IMG/VR virus record: IMGVR_UViG_3300027580_000018
Coordinates: 1 to 25,452 of that record
Direction: 5' to 3' (one strand)
DNA length: 25,452 nt
Origin: a virus
The position numbers and the translations under genes were made by a program. This document shows positions 9,328-25,452 of the stretch, one piece after another (position 1 is the first letter of the stretch; each line of letters begins with the position of its first letter). The notes under the pieces were generated by a model. That model searched no databases. It was not told the DNA's origin and was given only the letters and a program-made list of their open reading frames with translations.

Positions 9328-9884
9328 CCCTTCCACACTCCTAAAATAGGTGTTAAAATCTGCTTAGGGTCTAAGTCACCATTTAATACTCTATGCCTTA
9401 TCATAATGAATGTTTTTTCCATATAACTGTCACCTTTTCTAAGCACATCTACACCATAATTATTTTCATATACAAAATCATTTTCCACCCTTAGAGAGTA
9501 TGGTTTTTCCCCCAAATTTGTTGCTGTTCCTTTACTTAAATCCTTTAAATTTCCCCTAGTTCCTAATGTTTCATCATCCATATATAAATTTATTTGATTA
9601 CCACTTATTGTTACCTTTGTTGCTCTATATAGTCTTTCTGTTCTTTCATAAAAATTAGGTTCATCCTCTATTCTATACTCATCTCCAACAATCATTTCAG
9701 TAGGTTGCATATAAACTAAATCCATTATATTATTCTTTAAATTAGACTCAATACTTATTCTTCCATCACCTAATAGCATCCCTAACCATTTCTGTACACC
9801 TGACTCTGTTAAATATTCCCTTGTCATCTTTAATTTAGTGTCTAATTCTTCAAAATCTGAAGTATCTACTCTAAGTTTTATCAT
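9324..9884 (-). CDS. HK97 gp10-like neck/tail completion protein
   Basis: A 186-residue protein starting with ATG at 9884, two bases after the stop of the previous gene. It begins with a beta strand and then a long helix around DFEELDTKLKM. It carries a middle region of short strands (KVTISGNQINLYMDD) and ends in a helix with the phrase MEKTFIMIRHRVLNG. That last feature resembles HK97 gp10-type proteins, which often end with a helix and basic residues. It sits between head-closure-like and tail-terminator-like genes, the usual place for this family. It overlaps the next gene by four bases, suggesting coupled translation. Assignment to gp10-like is inference of moderate strength. Confidence 0.6.
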   Translation of the reverse strand: MIKLRVDTSDFEELDTKLKMTREYLTESGVQKWLGMLLGDGRISIESNLKNNIMDLVYMQPTEMIVGDEYRIEDEPNFYERTERLYRATKVTISGNQINLYMDDETLGTRGNLKDLSKGTATNLGEKPYSLRVENDFVYENNYGVDVLRKGDSYMEKTFIMIRHRVLNGDLDPKQILTPILGVWKG

Positions 9885-9886
9885 AA

Positions 9887-10288
9887 TTATCTCTTCCCTA
9901 CAAGATAATAATATACTACAGTCTTATCTAATAAATGTTCTTTTTGTAATATTTCTGCTGTAAAATCTATTTCATTATATTTAAATTGATATTTATTGGA
10001 ATCTTTAGGAAGTGAGGTATCATAAGGGAGTAAAAGAATAATATCACCTTCTGTCATATCACCATAATCATATCTTTTTTTACTAAATTCATCAATTTCT
10101 TGTATGACAGAAGGGTAATATTTATAAGTAGACCAATTTGAGGAAGTGGATTCTGATATGCCTGGATTATACCCTCCACCCTCGTCCTCATAATACCTAA
10201 TTTCATAACTTCCTTGACTAGTTAAATTCTTAGCATCTTGTAATATATTTTTCTTCTCAAGAGGAGATAATTTAAATTCATTAAGCAT
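9887..10288 (-). CDS. Head closure / head-tail joining-like protein
   Basis: A 133-residue protein with ATG at 10288 after AAGAGGTGATTAA. An N-terminal helix (SPLEKKNILQDAKNL) leads into a beta-rich domain with strands SYEIRYYED, KYYPSVIQEI, GDIILLLPYD and VVYYYLVGK. Small beta-barrel proteins of this size that sit between an adaptor and an HK97 gp10-like gene are usually head closure proteins, which plug the portal channel and receive the tail. The phrase GDMTEGDIILLLP resembles the loop and strand of such barrels. Its neighbours on both sides fit this neck module. No enzyme motif is present. Confidence 0.6.
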   Translation of the reverse strand: MLNEFKLSPLEKKNILQDAKNLTSQGSYEIRYYEDEGGGYNPGISESTSSNWSTYKYYPSVIQEIDEFSKKRYDYGDMTEGDIILLLPYDTSLPKDSNKYQFKYNEIDFTAEILQKEHLLDKTVVYYYLVGKR

Positions 10289-16110: not shown

Positions 16111-17121
16111 ATTAGCATTTACCTCCTCATTAAACTCTTCTTCTATTAAACTATCAATTTTATTTTGTACTGATTCTAAAGTATCATTAGAAATACCACT
16201 AATCCTTGAAGCAAGTCTTGCCGCTGCTGTTAAGGCTTTTCTATTTAATTTATAAGTTGAAGGATTAACTACTGGTAAAACTAAAAGCTCATCTAATGTC
16301 TCTACTTCTTCTTCACCTAGTAAACTTAATTGTGAAGCCCAATTTTTCATTGATTCACTCATATCTCCAACTTGTTCAGGTATTTCTTCTTCTGATTCTG
16401 GTTCAGCATCAGGATTTTGTGCATAGTATCCTTGAACGATAGCATCAAGTGATTTATCAACATTATCCCAATTAATATCCTCTATTCCTTCATAATTAGG
16501 GGTTCTAGCAGAATCTAACATAGCTATCTCTTTTTTCTTCTTTAATTTACTAGCAACTACTTTTTCAATATCTAGTGTTTTATCAGCAGCATTTTCTGTT
16601 AAAGCAGCTCCAGAGTATTCAGAAGGGTTAATTACCCTAACTACTTCTTCTCCCTCTAATCTTTCTCCTACAAGCTCTAAATAGTCTTCAGCATCTGGAA
16701 GTTCTATCTTTCTATTTCCGTGCATTATATAATAACTATTGAAATAGACTTCCATACTAATTTGATATTTACCTTCCTTAATTTCCTCTTCAGTAATATC
16801 ATATTCTTTTAAGGTATTTCTCCATAATACTGCATTACATATAATTTTACCATATCCTTCTTCCTCTGTAAAACTAGAGTCAATTACTGTTCCTACATTA
16901 ATCCATTGTTCATGTTCTAAATTAATATAACCAAAATCAATAGTATCATATAACTCTTTAGTCTCTTCGAAATCAAAACTATCTCCATTTGCATTAGCAA
17001 TAGGATAAGTTCTTAATAAAGGAAATGATATTCTTATCTTATTTGGAGAACTATCAACCTTACTAGATTTAGCTCTATCAAAATCTATTTCTGGTTTAAC
17101 TTTTATTTGCACTTTCTCCAT
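15631..17121 (-). CDS. Prohead protease fused to scaffold
   Basis: A 496-residue protein with ATG at 17121 after AGGGGGTGATATTTAA. The N-terminal half is an assemblin-fold (herpesvirus protease-like) prohead protease. Strands around NGDSFDFEE and IDFGYINLEHEQW place His70 as a catalytic base, and GKYQISMEVYF places Ser122 as the nucleophile. YSGAALTENAADKTLDIEKVV (167-189) ends the domain as in relatives. Residues about 195-330 are linker. From about 330 the protein is acidic coiled coil typical of a scaffold, rich in Glu and Lys. Cleavage between the parts and of the capsid N-terminus is expected from the family. An internal ATG at 16110 with AGGAGGT ten bases ahead may give a separate scaffold of 159 residues. 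Confidence 0.88.
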   Translation of the reverse strand: MEKVQIKVKPEIDFDRAKSSKVDSSPNKIRISFPLLRTYPIANANGDSFDFEETKELYDTIDFGYINLEHEQWINVGTVIDSSFTEEEGYGKIICNAVLWRNTLKEYDITEEEIKEGKYQISMEVYFNSYYIMHGNRKIELPDAEDYLELVGERLEGEEVVRVINPSEYSGAALTENAADKTLDIEKVVASKLKKKKEIAMLDSARTPNYEGIEDINWDNVDKSLDAIVQGYYAQNPDAEPESEEEIPEQVGDMSESMKNWASQLSLLGEEEVETLDELLVLPVVNPSTYKLNRKALTAAARLASRISGISNDTLESVQNKIDSLIEEEFNEEVNANMYKEFETEEEFNNFKNDLKDSLLEDDEFISKATEGYVKEEEVLASIEEEEIDNINDVVDKYKEVKEEFASYKEDIEKEKKLNKRKATLEDKGIDIEKLEASEEDIMEMSEKSFNLMVKSFEQAFENMAEASKDGKFDPTNFDMNNEDNDVSDDEILESL

Positions 17122-18613: not shown

Positions 18614-18630
18614 GATTTTTACTCACCCCC
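18614..18630 (-). promoter_or_regulatory. Strong ribosome binding site without an ATG, likely ATC start for portal
   Basis: On the minus strand GGGGGTGAGTAAAA is followed by ATC GCT AAA GAT, in frame with the portal and open for 15 codons to the first ATG. Spacing matches other genes here (AGGTGA, about six bases, start). Without it the portal ATG has no recognisable ribosome binding site. An alternative is one extra A in the AAAAA run, which would give GTG AGT AAA ATC. Confidence 0.5.
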
Positions 18631-20279
18631 TATTTACTCCACTTACCTAACACAAAGTTCTTTTTCTTTTTTCTTTTAAAGTTATCTTTTATAAACTCGT
18701 CTGCCATATAGCATCCTAGTTCACATACTGTCCATCTATCAGAAGTTTGTCTTGGGTCTTCTGGTTTATATTTAATCACATTTGAATTAGCTTGTATTTT
18801 AATCTGTGTTATCTCAAATATAGCTTGTTTTATTTCATTATATGCTTTCTCTTCTTTCTTAGATTTATAACCATCAATAGGCTCATCAGGTATTTTAAAT
18901 CTCCCTTTTTCTATTTCAGATAGAAAATGTCTAGCTCTTTCCTCATTAGTTTTATTTGTAAAGTTATGAATTTCAAGTTTCTTTACTATATTGTAATCAT
19001 CACCGTATTTTTTACGAATATATTTTAACTGTTCTTCATCATCTACATCTATAATAATATCTCCTATATATTCATCATCATACTCATAAGGCTCTGCTAA
19101 ATTATCTTTAATATTTTTATGCCTCTGGTCTGCAACTATTTTTACTATATTAAACTTTCTTAAAAAGTCTCTTATAACTTCTATCTTTTCTTGAATAGGT
19201 GCATTATTCATAGCTTTTACTCTTACTAATCTCTTTACATTACCATCTAATTTTATTATAGCTATAGCAAAATTATCAGTTCCTTGGTCTGCATCATCAA
19301 TAGCCATTAAATATTTATGAGTTGGTAAACCATCTTCATCATAAGTTTGTTCTAACTCAACTTGTGTTTTAGGTTCTGAGTGTTCCCCTGTTTCTTCATT
19401 TACTAACTCAGGATGGTCTATAGCTTTTTCATCTAATAATTGATATGTAATAAATCCACCTGTATCATCAGGGAATATATTTAAATACTCCTTCTTTCTA
19501 GTTATAGGGTCAGCACTCTTAAACTCATCAAGAACCCTTTTAATTTCAAATTTACCGCTTTTTAATCCATCTATAAAATCATAAGTGATAATATCATAAT
19601 CATCATCACCTTCAGCTATTTTTTCTTGATATTCTTTATATTTTTTATAATAATCACTCCAAGTAAAAGCAGCAGTTGATGATATTATTATTTGGTTACC
19701 TATATCAGTTGGGTCATCCTCAACTCCTTCTCTTTTAGTAAAAACCATAGGAGCTAATACTTGGCTATACATTTCATTCATACTTCTATTATGAGGAAAA
19801 CCATACTCATCAACAAATATAATATGATAACCTTTTGAACGTATATTTGGGTTTAAAGGTACTGCTTCTATTGAAGAACCATTTTTTAAATCAATTGACC
19901 AACTAGCATTACCATGTTTTGGTCTATCTATAACCTCAGCTTGAAATAGTTCACTTCTTCTATATATTTTTTCTACTTCTTTAAATACTGTTTGTGATTG
20001 TCTAAATACTGGGGCTGTTATACCTATTTTTAAGTCAGAGTATAATAATGCTTTTAAAGACATATATACTGCTGAAGTAAAGGTCTTTCCAGTACGTCTA
20101 GAGCACAACAATAAAGGGTTCTTATGATTCCATAATCTATCTAATATATCCTTCTGATAATAAGCTAAATCAATATTTAATAACTTATCTGCACCCAAAT
20201 TTGGGTATCTTTTAGAAGCATAATAGAGTTTAGAGAGATTTTCAATAGCTTTATCTTGATTATTCACTATCTCCGTCAT
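18630..20279 (-). CDS. Large terminase subunit (TerL)
   Basis: A 549-residue ATPase-nuclease that cuts and pumps DNA into the prohead. I start it at ATG 20279 because AGGTGA lies five bases ahead; an in-frame GTG (20288) and ATG (20285) sit in that site. Walker A is LCSRRTGKTF (about 58-67). Walker B is HIIFVDEYGF with Asp157 and catalytic Glu158. A coupling-like segment is IIISSTAAFTW (about 197-207). The RNase H-type nuclease starts with AIDDADQGTDNFA, Asp328, and continues with IVADQRH, Asp384, and a late DRW (near 518). All key acidic residues are present. It overlaps the end of the putative small subunit gene by 20 bases. Confidence 0.95.
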   Translation of the reverse strand: MTEIVNNQDKAIENLSKLYYASKRYPNLGADKLLNIDLAYYQKDILDRLWNHKNPLLLCSRRTGKTFTSAVYMSLKALLYSDLKIGITAPVFRQSQTVFKEVEKIYRRSELFQAEVIDRPKHGNASWSIDLKNGSSIEAVPLNPNIRSKGYHIIFVDEYGFPHNRSMNEMYSQVLAPMVFTKREGVEDDPTDIGNQIIISSTAAFTWSDYYKKYKEYQEKIAEGDDDYDIITYDFIDGLKSGKFEIKRVLDEFKSADPITRKKEYLNIFPDDTGGFITYQLLDEKAIDHPELVNEETGEHSEPKTQVELEQTYDEDGLPTHKYLMAIDDADQGTDNFAIAIIKLDGNVKRLVRVKAMNNAPIQEKIEVIRDFLRKFNIVKIVADQRHKNIKDNLAEPYEYDDEYIGDIIIDVDDEEQLKYIRKKYGDDYNIVKKLEIHNFTNKTNEERARHFLSEIEKGRFKIPDEPIDGYKSKKEEKAYNEIKQAIFEITQIKIQANSNVIKYKPEDPRQTSDRWTVCELGCYMADEFIKDNFKRKKKKNFVLGKWSK

Positions 20280-21120
20280 AAACATCACCTACAGCTTCTT
20301 CAATCTCTTCTTCAAAATCAATATCACCTTGCAAAACCTTTTTCCTTCTCTTATTTGATTTATCTAATTCTTCTTTTTTCTTTTCTCTTTCTTCTTCCAT
20401 TCTCTCTAACATATCATCTATATCTTTATTTTTAAATTCACTATTAATTTTATCATATACTGAAAGTTCTTTATCGTTTGTTTTTTGTTGTTTAATAATT
20501 TCTTCTAAGTCATCTCTAAGATTATTGTATAATTTAATTTCATCTTTTTTTACACTTATAAAATCTTTATCAGTAGCTTTAGTATTGCTTATAGCTTCTT
20601 GTCTATACAAATCTTTTATCTTTAATTCTTGTATTACTAAAAAATGTAATACTGCTAAATCTTTTTTATCAAAATCAACATTTTCTGTTTCTAATATATC
20701 ATTAAACCTCTCTTTTAGAAACTCAACTTGAACATCAGTATATTCACCTGTACCAAAGTCTACTAAATTTATAGGTAATTTCTTAATAGATTTTTGTGTG
20801 AGTCTTTCTGTAGACTTTTCTTTCCCTATTTGTTGCCCAAATCTTTGTTTTAAAGCAGATATAAAATTTCTAGCTAAAGGCAAATCATTATAATTTATTT
20901 CAATCTCTTCTTGCCATCCACAATCATTACACACTATCCCAAAATGTTCATACCTTATATTGTCTCTTTTACAAACAGGACAATGTTTTCTTTCATGATT
21001 ATCATGTAAATAATCTGCCATTCTTTGTTTAGTTCTTGTTAAATCATCTAAAGCTTTCTTAACTATGTCATCCGTTAAAAGATGTTCATATTTGTCTAAT
21101 TTCCATTTAGTTACTGCCAT
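20260..21120 (-). CDS. Putative small terminase subunit with zinc ribbon
   Basis: A 286-residue protein directly before TerL, with ATG at 21120 after GAAGGTGTAATAT. It has a zinc ribbon with Cys47-Pro-Val-Cys50 and Cys64-Asn-Asp-Cys67 (CPVC...CNDC). The rest is helical: an N-terminal HTH-like region (about 14-40), a central helical segment resembling small terminase oligomerisation cores (about 130-215), and a long charged C-terminal coiled coil. A small terminase subunit recognises the packaging site and stimulates TerL. Position supports that role, while a zinc ribbon is not usual in classic TerS proteins. An alternative is a packaging-associated DNA-binding protein of another kind. Confidence 0.6.
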   Translation of the reverse strand: MAVTKWKLDKYEHLLTDDIVKKALDDLTRTKQRMADYLHDNHERKHCPVCKRDNIRYEHFGIVCNDCGWQEEIEINYNDLPLARNFISALKQRFGQQIGKEKSTERLTQKSIKKLPINLVDFGTGEYTDVQVEFLKERFNDILETENVDFDKKDLAVLHFLVIQELKIKDLYRQEAISNTKATDKDFISVKKDEIKLYNNLRDDLEEIIKQQKTNDKELSVYDKINSEFKNKDIDDMLERMEEEREKKKEELDKSNKRRKKVLQGDIDFEEEIEEAVGDVYDGDSE

Positions 21121-21133
21121 ATATTACACCTTC

Positions 21134-22132
21134 TTATACTCTATATACAGTTATATCATTCCAACTAGTTTCTTGATTTTTTACATCCATTATCACATAA
21201 GAATTTGTCCAGTTATTACCTTTTGCATCCTTATCTCTATAAGGTACATCTAATAATTCTAAACAACCAGACTCTACAGCTATTTTACCAGAAAACTGGG
21301 TTTTACCATCTGTGTGTGTATGCCCTATAGAAACAACATCAAATTTACCAAATTCTTTTTCGTGTTCTTTTTTAATTCTACTTCTTATTACATTTCTAGC
21401 ACTTCTCATTTTTATTTTACTATATCTATTAGGATGTGCAAAAACAATATTAAATATATGTGTATACCAGTTATTAATGTATATTATATTATCAAAAAAC
21501 TTAGTTACTTCAGATAATGGTTTATGTTTATCTGATAAATACCCACTCAAAGCAGTTACAACTTTTTTAGAAAAGTATCTTTTTAATCTTCTTTCATGGT
21601 TACCTTCTGTTATAACTACATCTTCAAATATCTCTGATATAGGTTTAAGTATTTTAAAAAGCATCCTATATTCTTCTTCTACAGTTATTTCTCTTTTTTG
21701 ACCATAATTACTAATTGATTTATAATCTAATAAGTCCCCATTAATTACACAAATATCAGCATCTTGATTATTATAGATTATCTCTTCTAAAGCATCAATA
21801 TTAGTAAAAGGAACATGTAAATCAGATATATTTAGTATCTTAGCATCATTGTATTTATCTTTAAAATACTCTTGATAATGTTTTATATCCGAAATAGCCT
21901 CTTTATAATCTGACGCCTCTTCATTAATTCTTATTTCTTTAAATATACCTTTACCTCTTTTATTAGGTATATAATCTATAATAGAAGACCTTCTTATTTT
22001 ATTTCTTACTGAATCAAAAGTAAAATCCCTCTCAAATTTTTTATTCATTTCTTCTATTATTGCAGAATAATTATTACCATACTCATCATATAAATTAGAT
22101 AATTCTAATTCTTGTTTATTTGTCCATTCCAT
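21134..22132 (-). CDS. Metallophosphoesterase with N-terminal HTH domain
   Basis: A 332-residue protein with ATG at 22132 after GGGGGAAGGAAAT. Residues 1-50 (EWTNKQELELSNLYDEYGNNYSA...DSVRNKIRR) look like a homeodomain/Myb-type helix-turn-helix. The rest is a calcineurin-like phosphoesterase with all metal motifs: D104-x-H106 (ISDLHVPF), GD133 (INGDLLD), GN178H179E (EGNHERR), His233 (AHPNR) and GH271TH273 (IGHTHTDG). Such enzymes are binuclear and act on phosphodiesters in nucleic acids or nucleotides. The substrate cannot be told. Its place between a late promoter and the terminase genes suggests a role in DNA end handling, packaging or host DNA attack. That is inference. Confidence 0.88.
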   Translation of the reverse strand: MEWTNKQELELSNLYDEYGNNYSAIIEEMNKKFERDFTFDSVRNKIRRSSIIDYIPNKRGKGIFKEIRINEEASDYKEAISDIKHYQEYFKDKYNDAKILNISDLHVPFTNIDALEEIIYNNQDADICVINGDLLDYKSISNYGQKREITVEEEYRMLFKILKPISEIFEDVVITEGNHERRLKRYFSKKVVTALSGYLSDKHKPLSEVTKFFDNIIYINNWYTHIFNIVFAHPNRYSKIKMRSARNVIRSRIKKEHEKEFGKFDVVSIGHTHTDGKTQFSGKIAVESGCLELLDVPYRDKDAKGNNWTNSYVIMDVKNQETSWNDITVYRV

Positions 22133-22149: not shown

Positions 22150-22308
22150 TTATTTTGACTTTGTAAATATACTATTGATATGTCCACATTTTGGACATTC
22201 AATCTCTATCTTTAGTTTACCATTCTTAACTTCCTTTGTCCTTATAATACCCAACTGTGCTTCCTCTGCACTAATTGCATACTGGCAATTCTCACAGAAT
22301 AATTCCAT
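22150..22308 (-). CDS. 52-residue zinc ribbon protein
   Basis: A short gene with ATG at 22308 after AAGGAAGGGATTTATT and TAA at 22150. It starts MELFCENCQYAISAEEAQ and ends with a knuckle ECPKCGHINS. Cys5, Cys8, Cys38 and Cys41 form a clear zinc ribbon with about 29 residues between the pairs. It is the first gene after the promoter region and precedes the metallophosphoesterase by 17 bases. Zinc ribbons of this size bind nucleic acid or RNA polymerase. A regulatory or adaptor role is possible but not shown. Confidence 0.85.
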   Translation of the reverse strand: MELFCENCQYAISAEEAQLGIIRTKEVKNGKLKIEIECPKCGHINSIFTKSK

Positions 22309-22329
22309 AATAAATCCCTTCCTTCTTGT

Positions 22330-22360
22330 TAAACCTTTATTATAACCTTAGGTAATAAAT
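22330..22360 (-). promoter_or_regulatory. Promoter-like site B with nested inverted repeat
   Basis: On the minus strand ATTTATTACC is followed after TAAGGT by a perfect TATAAT (22344-22339), then AAAGGTTTAAC. There is no good -35. The GGTTTA partner half site (22335-22330) faces ATTACC (22356-22351), 21 bases apart centre to centre. It lies about 20 bases ahead of the ribosome binding site of the zinc ribbon gene. The box is shared with site A. Confidence 0.5.
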
Positions 22361-22469
22361 TACAGTTAATTATAATATTTACTTTATTTCTAAAATATGT
22401 AAATAGTAAACAAAAAAATAATATATTTTATTATATTTATTATATTATTTATTATATATATATTACTTA
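22361..22469. other. Extremely A+T-rich tract without a gene
   Basis: About 110 bases made almost only of A and T, with short runs such as TATTTATTATATATATATT. I find no credible gene on either strand. It separates the two promoter-like sites and may act as an UP-like or bending element or an easily melted region. No origin repeats were found. The wider stretch from 22309 to 22609 holds these promoters, this tract and the sigma-gene terminator only. Confidence 0.5.
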
Positions 22470-22501
22470 ATTACCTCTCTATTATAAACGTGGTAATAAA
22501 T
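22470..22501 (-). promoter_or_regulatory. Promoter-like site A with nested inverted repeat
   Basis: On the minus strand ATTTATTACC, then ACGTT and a perfect TATAAT (22486-22481), then AGAGAGGTAAT. ATTACC (22497-22492) and GGTAAT (22475-22470) are exact inverted repeats with the -10 between them, 22 bases centre to centre. A weak TTAATG lies 17 bases above the -10. The arrangement fits control by a DNA-binding regulator or an alternative sigma. Confidence 0.55.
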
Positions 22502-22553
22502 AGCATTAAATACAAATGAAAAAATAAAAAAAGTTGTATTATATAATTAATTA

Positions 22554-22597
22554 AAGAAAAAAAGAGCCTCAAAGAGTTAATTAACTCTAAGAGACTC
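22554..22597 (-). terminator. Strong intrinsic terminator after the sigma-like gene
   Basis: On the minus strand GAGTCTC pairs with GAGGCTC (one G-U), enclosing a full palindrome AGAGTTAATTAACTCT, and is followed by TTTTTTTCTTT. This is a classic rho-independent terminator. It sits 13 bases past the sigma stop codon and ahead of the late promoter-like sites. Confidence 0.9.
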
Positions 22598-22609
22598 ATA
22601 GACTTTATA

Positions 22610-23236
22610 TTAAGTACTTATAATTTCTCTTATTTTACTTAAATGATAACTTACTGCTTGTTGAGTAATTCCTAACTTCTCTGACACATCATCCTGATTC
22701 ACCTTACCATTAGCTTCTATATAAATTTTAGCTATCTTTTTTTGTATATCTAAAAGTTCATTACTTCTTTCAATATAATCTTTTAACTCTATCCTTTTAA
22801 ATTCATTTATATTATCTTCCCATCTTATTAAAGATTCCTCTTCAAAATTATATCCTTCACTTTGTATTTTTTCAAAACTAGTGTCTTTTTCTTTACCACC
22901 TCTTTTTTGTGCAAACCCTTTTTTACGTTCTTCTGATACTAAATGTTTTAAAATAGTACCAGAATATATTACATATGTAGTTGAAACATCTTTAGGGTTT
23001 AATTGTGATAAAGCTTTATTTATAGAATCTAATATAGCACCTAATATAAAAGAATCTGATACAAATGAATAATTAGATATTATTTTATAATAATACCCTT
23101 TATTTTGTTTCAAAACTTGTTTAATAGCTATATTAGGGTCTCTTTCATAAACTCTTTTTATTTGATAATTATTTTTAGTATCTATTCTTTCATCTTTTTC
23201 TATATTTTTTAGTAAATCTCCTAATTTATTATTCAT
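22610..23236 (-). CDS. Phage sigma factor-like protein
   Basis: A 208-residue protein. I chose ATG at 23236 since GAGGGG lies seven bases ahead; it overlaps the end of the membrane protein gene. The first half has helices like sigma region 2 (QNKGYYYKIISNYSF, then ILDSINKALSQLNPKD and TILKHLVSEERK). The C-terminal end is a region 4-type helix-turn-helix (NQDDVSEKLGITQQAVSYHLSKI, about 180-202). Together they fit a small sigma factor of phage type that binds the host core polymerase and redirects it to phage promoters. It is the last gene before the terminator and the late promoter-like sites, a natural place for a late switch. The region 2 match is less certain than the HTH. Confidence 0.75.
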   Translation of the reverse strand: MNNKLGDLLKNIEKDERIDTKNNYQIKRVYERDPNIAIKQVLKQNKGYYYKIISNYSFVSDSFILGAILDSINKALSQLNPKDVSTTYVIYSGTILKHLVSEERKKGFAQKRGGKEKDTSFEKIQSEGYNFEEESLIRWEDNINEFKRIELKDYIERSNELLDIQKKIAKIYIEANGKVNQDDVSEKLGITQQAVSYHLSKIREIIST

Positions 23237-23492
23237 TATCATTCCCCTCATTATTGTTTTTATCTATATTGTCCATAAATTTATTTAAACTATCCATATA
23301 ATCTTCTACTTCTTCTTTCTTAGAAATTTCTTCTTTAACTTGAATATATGTATTATAACTTAATGCTATAAATATATAAGCAAATACAAAAATCCAATCA
23401 CCTAACATTATAGACCTTATTAATGCTGTTATAAAAAGAGATAATGTAGTTACTGCTAAAAATCTTGATAAATATAATTTAAAATTATTCAT
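23229..23492 (-). CDS. Small membrane protein with two transmembrane helices
   Basis: An 87-residue protein with ATG at 23492 after AGGAGGATTATA. Two hydrophobic helices are clear, at about residues 9-28 and 32-48, separated by the short loop MLGDW. The C-terminal third is charged and rich in Lys, Glu, Asn and Asp (EEISKKEEVEDYMDSL). The positive-inside rule suggests both ends face the cytoplasm. It lies between PhoH and the sigma-like gene and overlaps the latter by eight bases. A membrane tether for replication, a superinfection exclusion factor or a lysis-related role are all possible. No family was recognised. Confidence 0.7.
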   Translation of the reverse strand: MNNFKLYLSRFLAVTTLSLFITALIRSIMLGDWIFVFAYIFIALSYNTYIQVKEEISKKEEVEDYMDSLNKFMDNIDKNNNEGNDNE

Positions 23493-24670: not shown

Positions 24671-25452
24671 TTATTTAGCTTCAAAGTAATTTTTACCTGT
24701 ATCCATACTTACAGTTAAGTCAACTAAAGTATCCACTTTTTCTTTAAAAGGATTTTCCATTTCTTTATTAATATACTTTAAAGATTCTTCTAAATTCTTT
24801 TTTGGTACTTGAAGAACTATTTCATCGTGAACTTGCATTAATTGTTGAACTCCTAGTCTATTTAATTCCTTACTATTTTCAATATTAACCTGTGCTTGCA
24901 TTATTACATCAGATGAACTTGATTGAATTTTCCCATTAGTTGCTAATCTTTCACCATAACTTCTATACTTATCTTGTTTAGAATTAATTTCTGGTATCCA
25001 TATTTTTCTTCCTAATATAGATTTTACATACTCATTCTTTCTTGCCCTTTTAATCTGCTTATCAATTAAATCTTCAACTCCCTTATAAGATTCAAAGTAC
25101 CTTTTATAAATAGTTTTAGCTAAATCCTGTCCAGAATAAGCATTATACTCACTTTGTAAATCTTTATCTTCTAAATCTACACCAAAATCCATTAGAGTGT
25201 AATAAAGAGTGTGTGGAGACATTCCATACATTAAGGCAAAGTTAAGCGTCTTGCCTATATTTCTTTCTGTTGGATATAACTTTTTAGCTTCATCTGGATG
25301 ACAATCTAAACCTAATACATTTACAGCAGTAGCTCCATGACTATCATGCCCTTCTTTGAATGTTTTTAATAATTTATCATCACCACTAAAATGTGCTAAT
25401 AACTTCATTTCTAAATTATCATAATCAGATGCAATCATTATATAACCTTTAT
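24671..25452 (-). CDS. DNA polymerase I family (family A), C-terminal part
   Basis: The visible 260 codons are the palm and fingers of a family A DNA polymerase; the reading frame runs off the right edge (the ATG at 25438 lies inside motif A, so it is not the real start). Motif A is IASDYDNLEMKLLAHFSGD with the catalytic Asp. The O-helix is TERNIGKTLNFALMYGMS, with the equivalents of E. coli Arg754, Lys758, Phe762 and Tyr766. Motif C is MQVHDEIVLQV with His-Asp-Glu. Two departures are seen: NFA instead of NFG, and IQSSSSDVI where IQGTAADII is usual. It is the replicative polymerase and ends 18 bases before the PhoH gene. Confidence 0.95.
   Translation of the reverse strand, partial: KGYIMIASDYDNLEMKLLAHFSGDDKLLKTFKEGHDSHGATAVNVLGLDCHPDEAKKLYPTERNIGKTLNFALMYGMSPHTLYYTLMDFGVDLEDKDLQSEYNAYSGQDLAKTIYKRYFESYKGVEDLIDKQIKRARKNEYVKSILGRKIWIPEINSKQDKYRSYGERLATNGKIQSSSSDVIMQAQVNIENSKELNRLGVQQLMQVHDEIVLQVPKKNLEESLKYINKEMENPFKEKVDTLVDLTVSMDTGKNYFEAK

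Follow-up and report, generated by a model that had tools for sequence, protein, structure and literature searches.

Control of late genes by a phage sigma factor acting at its own late promoter is an established kind of regulation. In phages phiEco32 and 7-11, a phage-encoded sigma factor serves low-copy late promoters (PMC4331800); in late transcription of T4, gp55, which has no region 4, works together with gp33 and the sliding clamp (PMC2988020); SPO1-type late promoters are quoted in PMC3601020 as CGTTAGA-N17-19-GATATT; and in Staphylococcus phage K the early promoters are sigma-A-like and the late ones carry a -10 without a -35 (PMC11598898). Little is understood about late promoters in phages that infect low-GC hosts, as has been stated for phage K (PMC11598898). 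Here we analyze a stretch of 25,452 nucleotides from the IMG/VR virus record IMGVR_UViG_3300027580_000018 (the window), in which two similar promoter-like sites, A and B, lie ahead of the late genes.

Layout of the Late Operon and Its Upstream Gap

Both sites fall on the minus strand within a gap of 301 bases (22309-22609; 83% A+T) that follows the stop codon of a sigma-like gene and leads up to the gene for a 52-aa zinc-ribbon protein (22150..22308, minus strand; 60% identical in relatives). From the gap to the end of the window, the genes form one operon in the same direction (minus strand), in the order zinc-ribbon, phosphoesterase, a further zinc-ribbon gene occupying the small-terminase position, then large terminase, portal, capsid and tail. 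Homology gives the names of the large terminase, our marker for the late operon (18630..20288, minus strand; phrog_2, E 6.5e-28), and of the phosphoesterase, and upstream those of PhoH and DNA polymerase; the other late-operon genes (e.g., portal, capsid, and tail) are named by position and inference. The phosphoesterase (21134-22132) carries an N-terminal Myb-like domain; a related contig, L125, has another type of phosphoesterase at the equivalent place and a short related fragment, L139, has the type found in the window. No further gap longer than 90 bases occurs in the late operon, either from the gap to the downstream end of the window or over ~29 kb in a 66-kb relative. The zinc-ribbon gene is preceded by the ribosome-binding sequence AGAAGGAAGGG (22316..22326, minus strand), and an A+T-rich leader with a (TA)n run (22372..22469, minus strand) is also present in the relatives; Rfam yielded no leader RNA or riboswitch up to E 0.5.

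The sigma-like gene is followed by an intrinsic terminator (22557..22597, minus strand), a hairpin at 22597..22564 and then seven T, with a predicted RNA fold of -18.3 kcal/mol (z -5.3); the equivalent in L125 folds at -16.7 kcal/mol (z -5.1). An automatic terminator scan detected the L125 terminator and missed that of the window, the stem of which has internal mismatches. Because a strong terminator and a single gap are found in both lineages, a promoter should lie in the gap.

Two Copies of a Box and -10-Like Element

The original prediction, a shared box followed five or six bases later by TATAAT and occurring twice ahead of the late genes, holds exactly on the minus strand, with the two boxes 141 bases apart. 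Site A reads ATTTATTACC ACGTT TATAAT at 22501..22481 (box 22492..22501, -10-like element 22481..22486; N5 spacing) and site B reads ATTTATTACC TAAGGT TATAAT at 22360..22339 (box 22351..22360, -10-like element 22339..22344; N6 spacing), the latter -10 lying ~31 bases ahead of the start codon of the zinc-ribbon gene. The exact inverted repeats described around the site A -10 are likewise present, as ATTACC (22497..22492) and GGTAAT (22475..22470), 22 bases from start to start (ATTACC-N16-GGTAAT, 22470..22497, minus strand), and at site B the second half is only partly kept, as GGTTTA. Folded as a hairpin, the site A repeat is weak in the window (z only -1.6). No sigma-A-type -35 is paired at 16-18 bases with the -10 of either site, consistent with the earlier observation that a good -35 is absent, and neither of the marks expected of a host sigma-A promoter, a -35 near TTGACA or an extended TG, is found at site A or B.

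Taken singly, the elements are common: the window contains 119 copies of TATAAT and 16 boxes with one mismatch or fewer. Whole-window shuffles give an expectation of 0.01 matches to the composite; since the gap is A+T-rich, shuffling of the gap only is the fairer test, and in this test the similarity between A and B (23.2 bits) exceeds all 150 of 150 dinucleotide shuffles, a result that is nominal rather than overwhelming given a best shuffle of 23.15 bits and that is post hoc, the motif having been chosen by looking. At least 120 viral-contig stretches also contain the exact composite as a single copy, and every locus among the matches listed has one copy. The composite motif by itself is no marker.

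Conservation in a Related Phage Lineage

The related phage lineage comprises three viral contigs, L125, L126, and L127, of which L125 and L126 are identical in their overlap and L127 is ~94% identical over aligned DNA; the conservation comparison thus covers only two independent lineages. The order phoH, 86-aa gene, sigma-like gene, gap, zinc ribbon, phosphoesterase, terminase is common to the window and the relatives, with polA before phoH where the contig reaches; the full layout polA, phoH, sigma-like gene, terminator, gap, late operon is the same in the window and L125, and L127 has phoH, sigma-like gene, gap, late operon. Identity with the window proteins is 73% for terminase, PhoH, and capsid and 37% for the sigma-like protein. 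Searches with the sigma-like, TerL, PhoH, and capsid proteins recovered only this lineage and fragment L139, which ends short of the gap. Bacterial genome scans gave no matches, annotated phages and plasmids gave only distant terminase matches, and the annotated phage records searched contained nothing that matched the sigma-like or capsid proteins. Three other candidates (L128, L129, and L004) proved unrelated in the gap region on examination.

Several differences between the genomes lie outside the gap. L127 has an inserted small membrane-protein-like reading frame between the zinc-ribbon and phosphoesterase genes (~2541-2758) that is absent from L125. The DNA polymerase gene of L125 (6881-9985) is apparently split by an intein-like insert and by a noncoding stretch (~9659-9829) that by eye resembles a group I intron but matched no Rfam family up to E 0.5; the C-terminus of the window polymerase (24671-25438) is continuous. 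Two DNA methyltransferase genes (L133, 7592-8476 and 9593-10273) lie near primase and helicase genes in the relative.

Within the gap, site A of the window (ATTTATTACC-ACGTT-TATAAT-AGAGAGGTAATTAA) aligns with ATTTTTTATC-GTTGTA-ATTAAT-AGAGAGGTTAATAAA in L125. The two share a core, TAATAGAGAGGT (22473..22484, minus strand), which extends from the end of the -10 through the expected start and the first transcribed bases and is exact in L125 and L127; in information-weighted scoring, a match of this quality was reached by 8 of 1500 shuffle pairs. The original prediction had proposed a search of relatives for additional copies of the box: none of the relatives carries its exact sequence, and a version keeping 8 of 10 positions (ATTTTTTATC) occurs in the same gap at an equal offset (chance P 0.008). 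TATAAT itself is not conserved, the relatives having ATTAAT at the same position. A degenerate form of the composite, ATTTWTTAYC-N5,6-WWTAAT, matches twice in the window, once in the 66-kb relative, and once in the 35-kb L127 contig, all in the gap, with 0.001 or less expected there by chance; because these very sites supplied the pattern, the result demonstrates uniqueness and not independent discovery. L125 and L127 differ by 2 substitutions over 16491-16758 in the coordinates of the relative, the gap around site A, while most of the sigma-like gene next upstream has 4-9 substitutions per 100. A scan with the core pattern returned 16 stretches, with window homologues only in the three known relatives. 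A second copy of AATAGAGAGGTTA in the relative lies inside a coding gene, and hence the core is no sign of a second promoter.

No counterpart of site B was found in the relatives, and the equivalent segment is variable even between L125 and L127; site B is possibly a second, lineage-specific start at best. The inverted repeat ATTACC/GGTAAT is absent from L125 and L127, and L125 has no hairpin equivalent to it. With the repeat missing from the relatives and site B lacking a counterpart, there is no support for the suggestion that the two sites form a paired operator switch.

Early Promoters of the Relative

The 66-kb relative contains five near-identical early promoters of the form accTTGAAA-N17-TATAAT, the -10 being preceded by CGTG or TGTG (L133-L136; reverse-complement coordinates 62, 4964, 10120, 61414, and 62671), in addition to promoters of the TTGACA type. 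The five are distributed over the two gene arms and fall outside the late operon, the one at 10120 within an open reading frame, and their start is purine-rich and AAGTGAGAGG-like. Site A, in contrast, has neither a -35 nor a TG, an absence that we would read as the usual sign of a promoter dependent on a phage factor (compare PMC11598898, PMC4331800).

The Sigma-Like Gene Upstream of the Gap

The gene upstream of the gap (22610..23251, minus strand) encodes a 213-aa protein with a C-terminal helix-turn-helix (HTH) resembling sigma region 4 and a probable, divergent region 2. The HTH itself is firm, PF13412 (HTH_24) scoring above its cut-off in the C-terminal part. That this HTH is a sigma region 4 is likely from the predicted structures, in which sigma region 4 domains are the best structural matches to the C-terminal part (Z 7.7 and 7.5, with other HTH proteins close behind and middling Z values of this order common). 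TIGR02937 (sigma70-ECF) matches the gene in three of three genomes, weakly over residues 78-211 and below its curated cut-off (E 4.5e-4 to 9.3e-4); PF04542 (region 2) has no match in the protein, and DSFILGAILDSINKALS...TTYVIYSGTILKHLV by eye may correspond to region 2. In Foldseek searches of the PDB, the leading matches of two low-confidence models (pLDDT 56.5 and 52.4) are sigma factors that align along almost the entire protein, the best (E 0.015) being a full-length ECF factor, and a sequence search of solved structures returned HTH regulators, not sigma factors. The assignment of the gene to the sigma factors is hence tentative.

A Candidate Late Promoter and Alternative Readings

Site A lies in the sole candidate start region ahead of the virion genes, behind a terminator, and in a segment conserved in the relatives. 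We hypothesize, with a probability of roughly 0.55, that it is a low-copy, phage-factor-dependent late promoter, or the core of one, used with the sigma-like protein. The gap would then hold the regulatory sequences of the late operon (packaging and virion genes), with the terminator stopping read-through from the replication/sigma operon and late transcription starting afresh at site A (expected start ~22474). As site A has neither a -35 nor an extended -10, host sigma-A should use it poorly, and the product of the upstream gene would most probably bring host RNA polymerase to it by recognizing the box (ATTTATTACC or ATTTTTTATC, at approximately -28 to -18) together with the segment from -10 to +1; in the window lineage only, site B could serve the same factor as a second start. 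That site A is an active promoter, that it acts late, and that the sigma-like protein uses it are predictions from this arrangement. Of the earlier proposal of a new late promoter class, we retain for site A the late promoter, on the grounds of its place, the terminator in both lineages, the conserved core, the unique degenerate composite, and the contrast with the early promoters; a new class is too strong, as the composite precedes only the one operon and noncanonical late promoters served by phage sigma factors are already known.

One alternative is that host sigma-A itself uses site A as an ordinary promoter, in which UP-like A/T tracts upstream assist where the -35 is weak or absent and no phage factor is required. 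The perfect TATAAT of the window, the T-rich tracts upstream of site A in both lineages, and the similarity of CGTTTATAAT to the early CGTGTATAAT speak for this, but the -10 of the relatives is ATTAAT with neither TG nor -35, strong sigma-A promoters, at least five of them, are present in that same relative, and the box is partly kept, such that we regard this reading as unlikely, although worth serious consideration. We give still less credence to the upstream protein being not a sigma factor but an ordinary activator or repressor, bound at the box or the inverted repeat and controlling a sigma-A -10: the C-terminal HTH is its only firm domain and the repeat is exact at site A, yet the repeat is missing from the relatives and the sigma70-ECF model extends across residues 78-211. 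It is improbable that the resemblance of A and B arose by chance in A+T-rich DNA, with the true late start elsewhere in the gap; the many single composites in viral contigs, the frequency of TATAAT in the window, and the lack of conservation of site B fit such an origin, which is opposed by a similarity that the local shuffles did not reach and by the degenerate form in the same place in the relatives. Were the box instead a true -35 with its -10 at GGTAAT/GGTTTA, transcripts from site B would start inside the ribosome-binding sequence, which makes that reading less likely. No phage RNA polymerase, which could act in place of a sigma factor, is found in the ten genes scanned, all from among the larger reverse-strand genes of the relative.

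Against the preferred reading of site A as a phage-factor-dependent promoter, we count the position of the box, which occupies the place of a spacer and not that at which sigma region 4 normally binds. A distance of only 5-6 bases from the -10 is unusual, and the box is an unproven candidate recognition element. It is doubtful that the phage sigma uses a compact geometry, with an upstream element at ~-28 to -18 located 5-6 bases from the -10 instead of ~17; to our knowledge such a geometry has not been described. If the sigma-like protein does recognize this spacing, the known promoter geometry would be extended, and the locus offers a small, testable candidate factor-promoter pair in an uncultivated phage group.

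Comparison with Described Systems

The arrangement resembles SPO1 in that a phage sigma-like protein would serve the late genes in a phage of a low-GC host (PMC3601020); the CGTTAGA and GATATT elements quoted there are both absent at sites A and B, and the sigma-like proteins differ in having no match in the phage records searched. T4 late transcription is comparable in its diverged phage sigma and in a recognition that is restricted to the downstream site, with no sigma-4-equivalent domain involved (PMC2988020); the putative sigma factor here differs from gp55 in its C-terminal HTH. Phage K likewise combines sigma-A-like early promoters with late sites that have a -10 and no -35, but neither an upstream box nor a recognition factor is identified there (PMC11598898), and no sequence relation to it is shown. 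With phiEco32 and 7-11 too, the likeness is in kind, with no sequence relation shown: the motif in those phages is TGTGATGTTATA in several copies, compared with a motif here that is present once or twice and has an A+T box upstream. As in those phages, however, the few promoter copies emerge from pairwise comparison of intergenic regions, and early promoters of the sigma-70 type accompany structural genes under phage-type promoters (PMC4331800), the latter being the role that we propose for site A.
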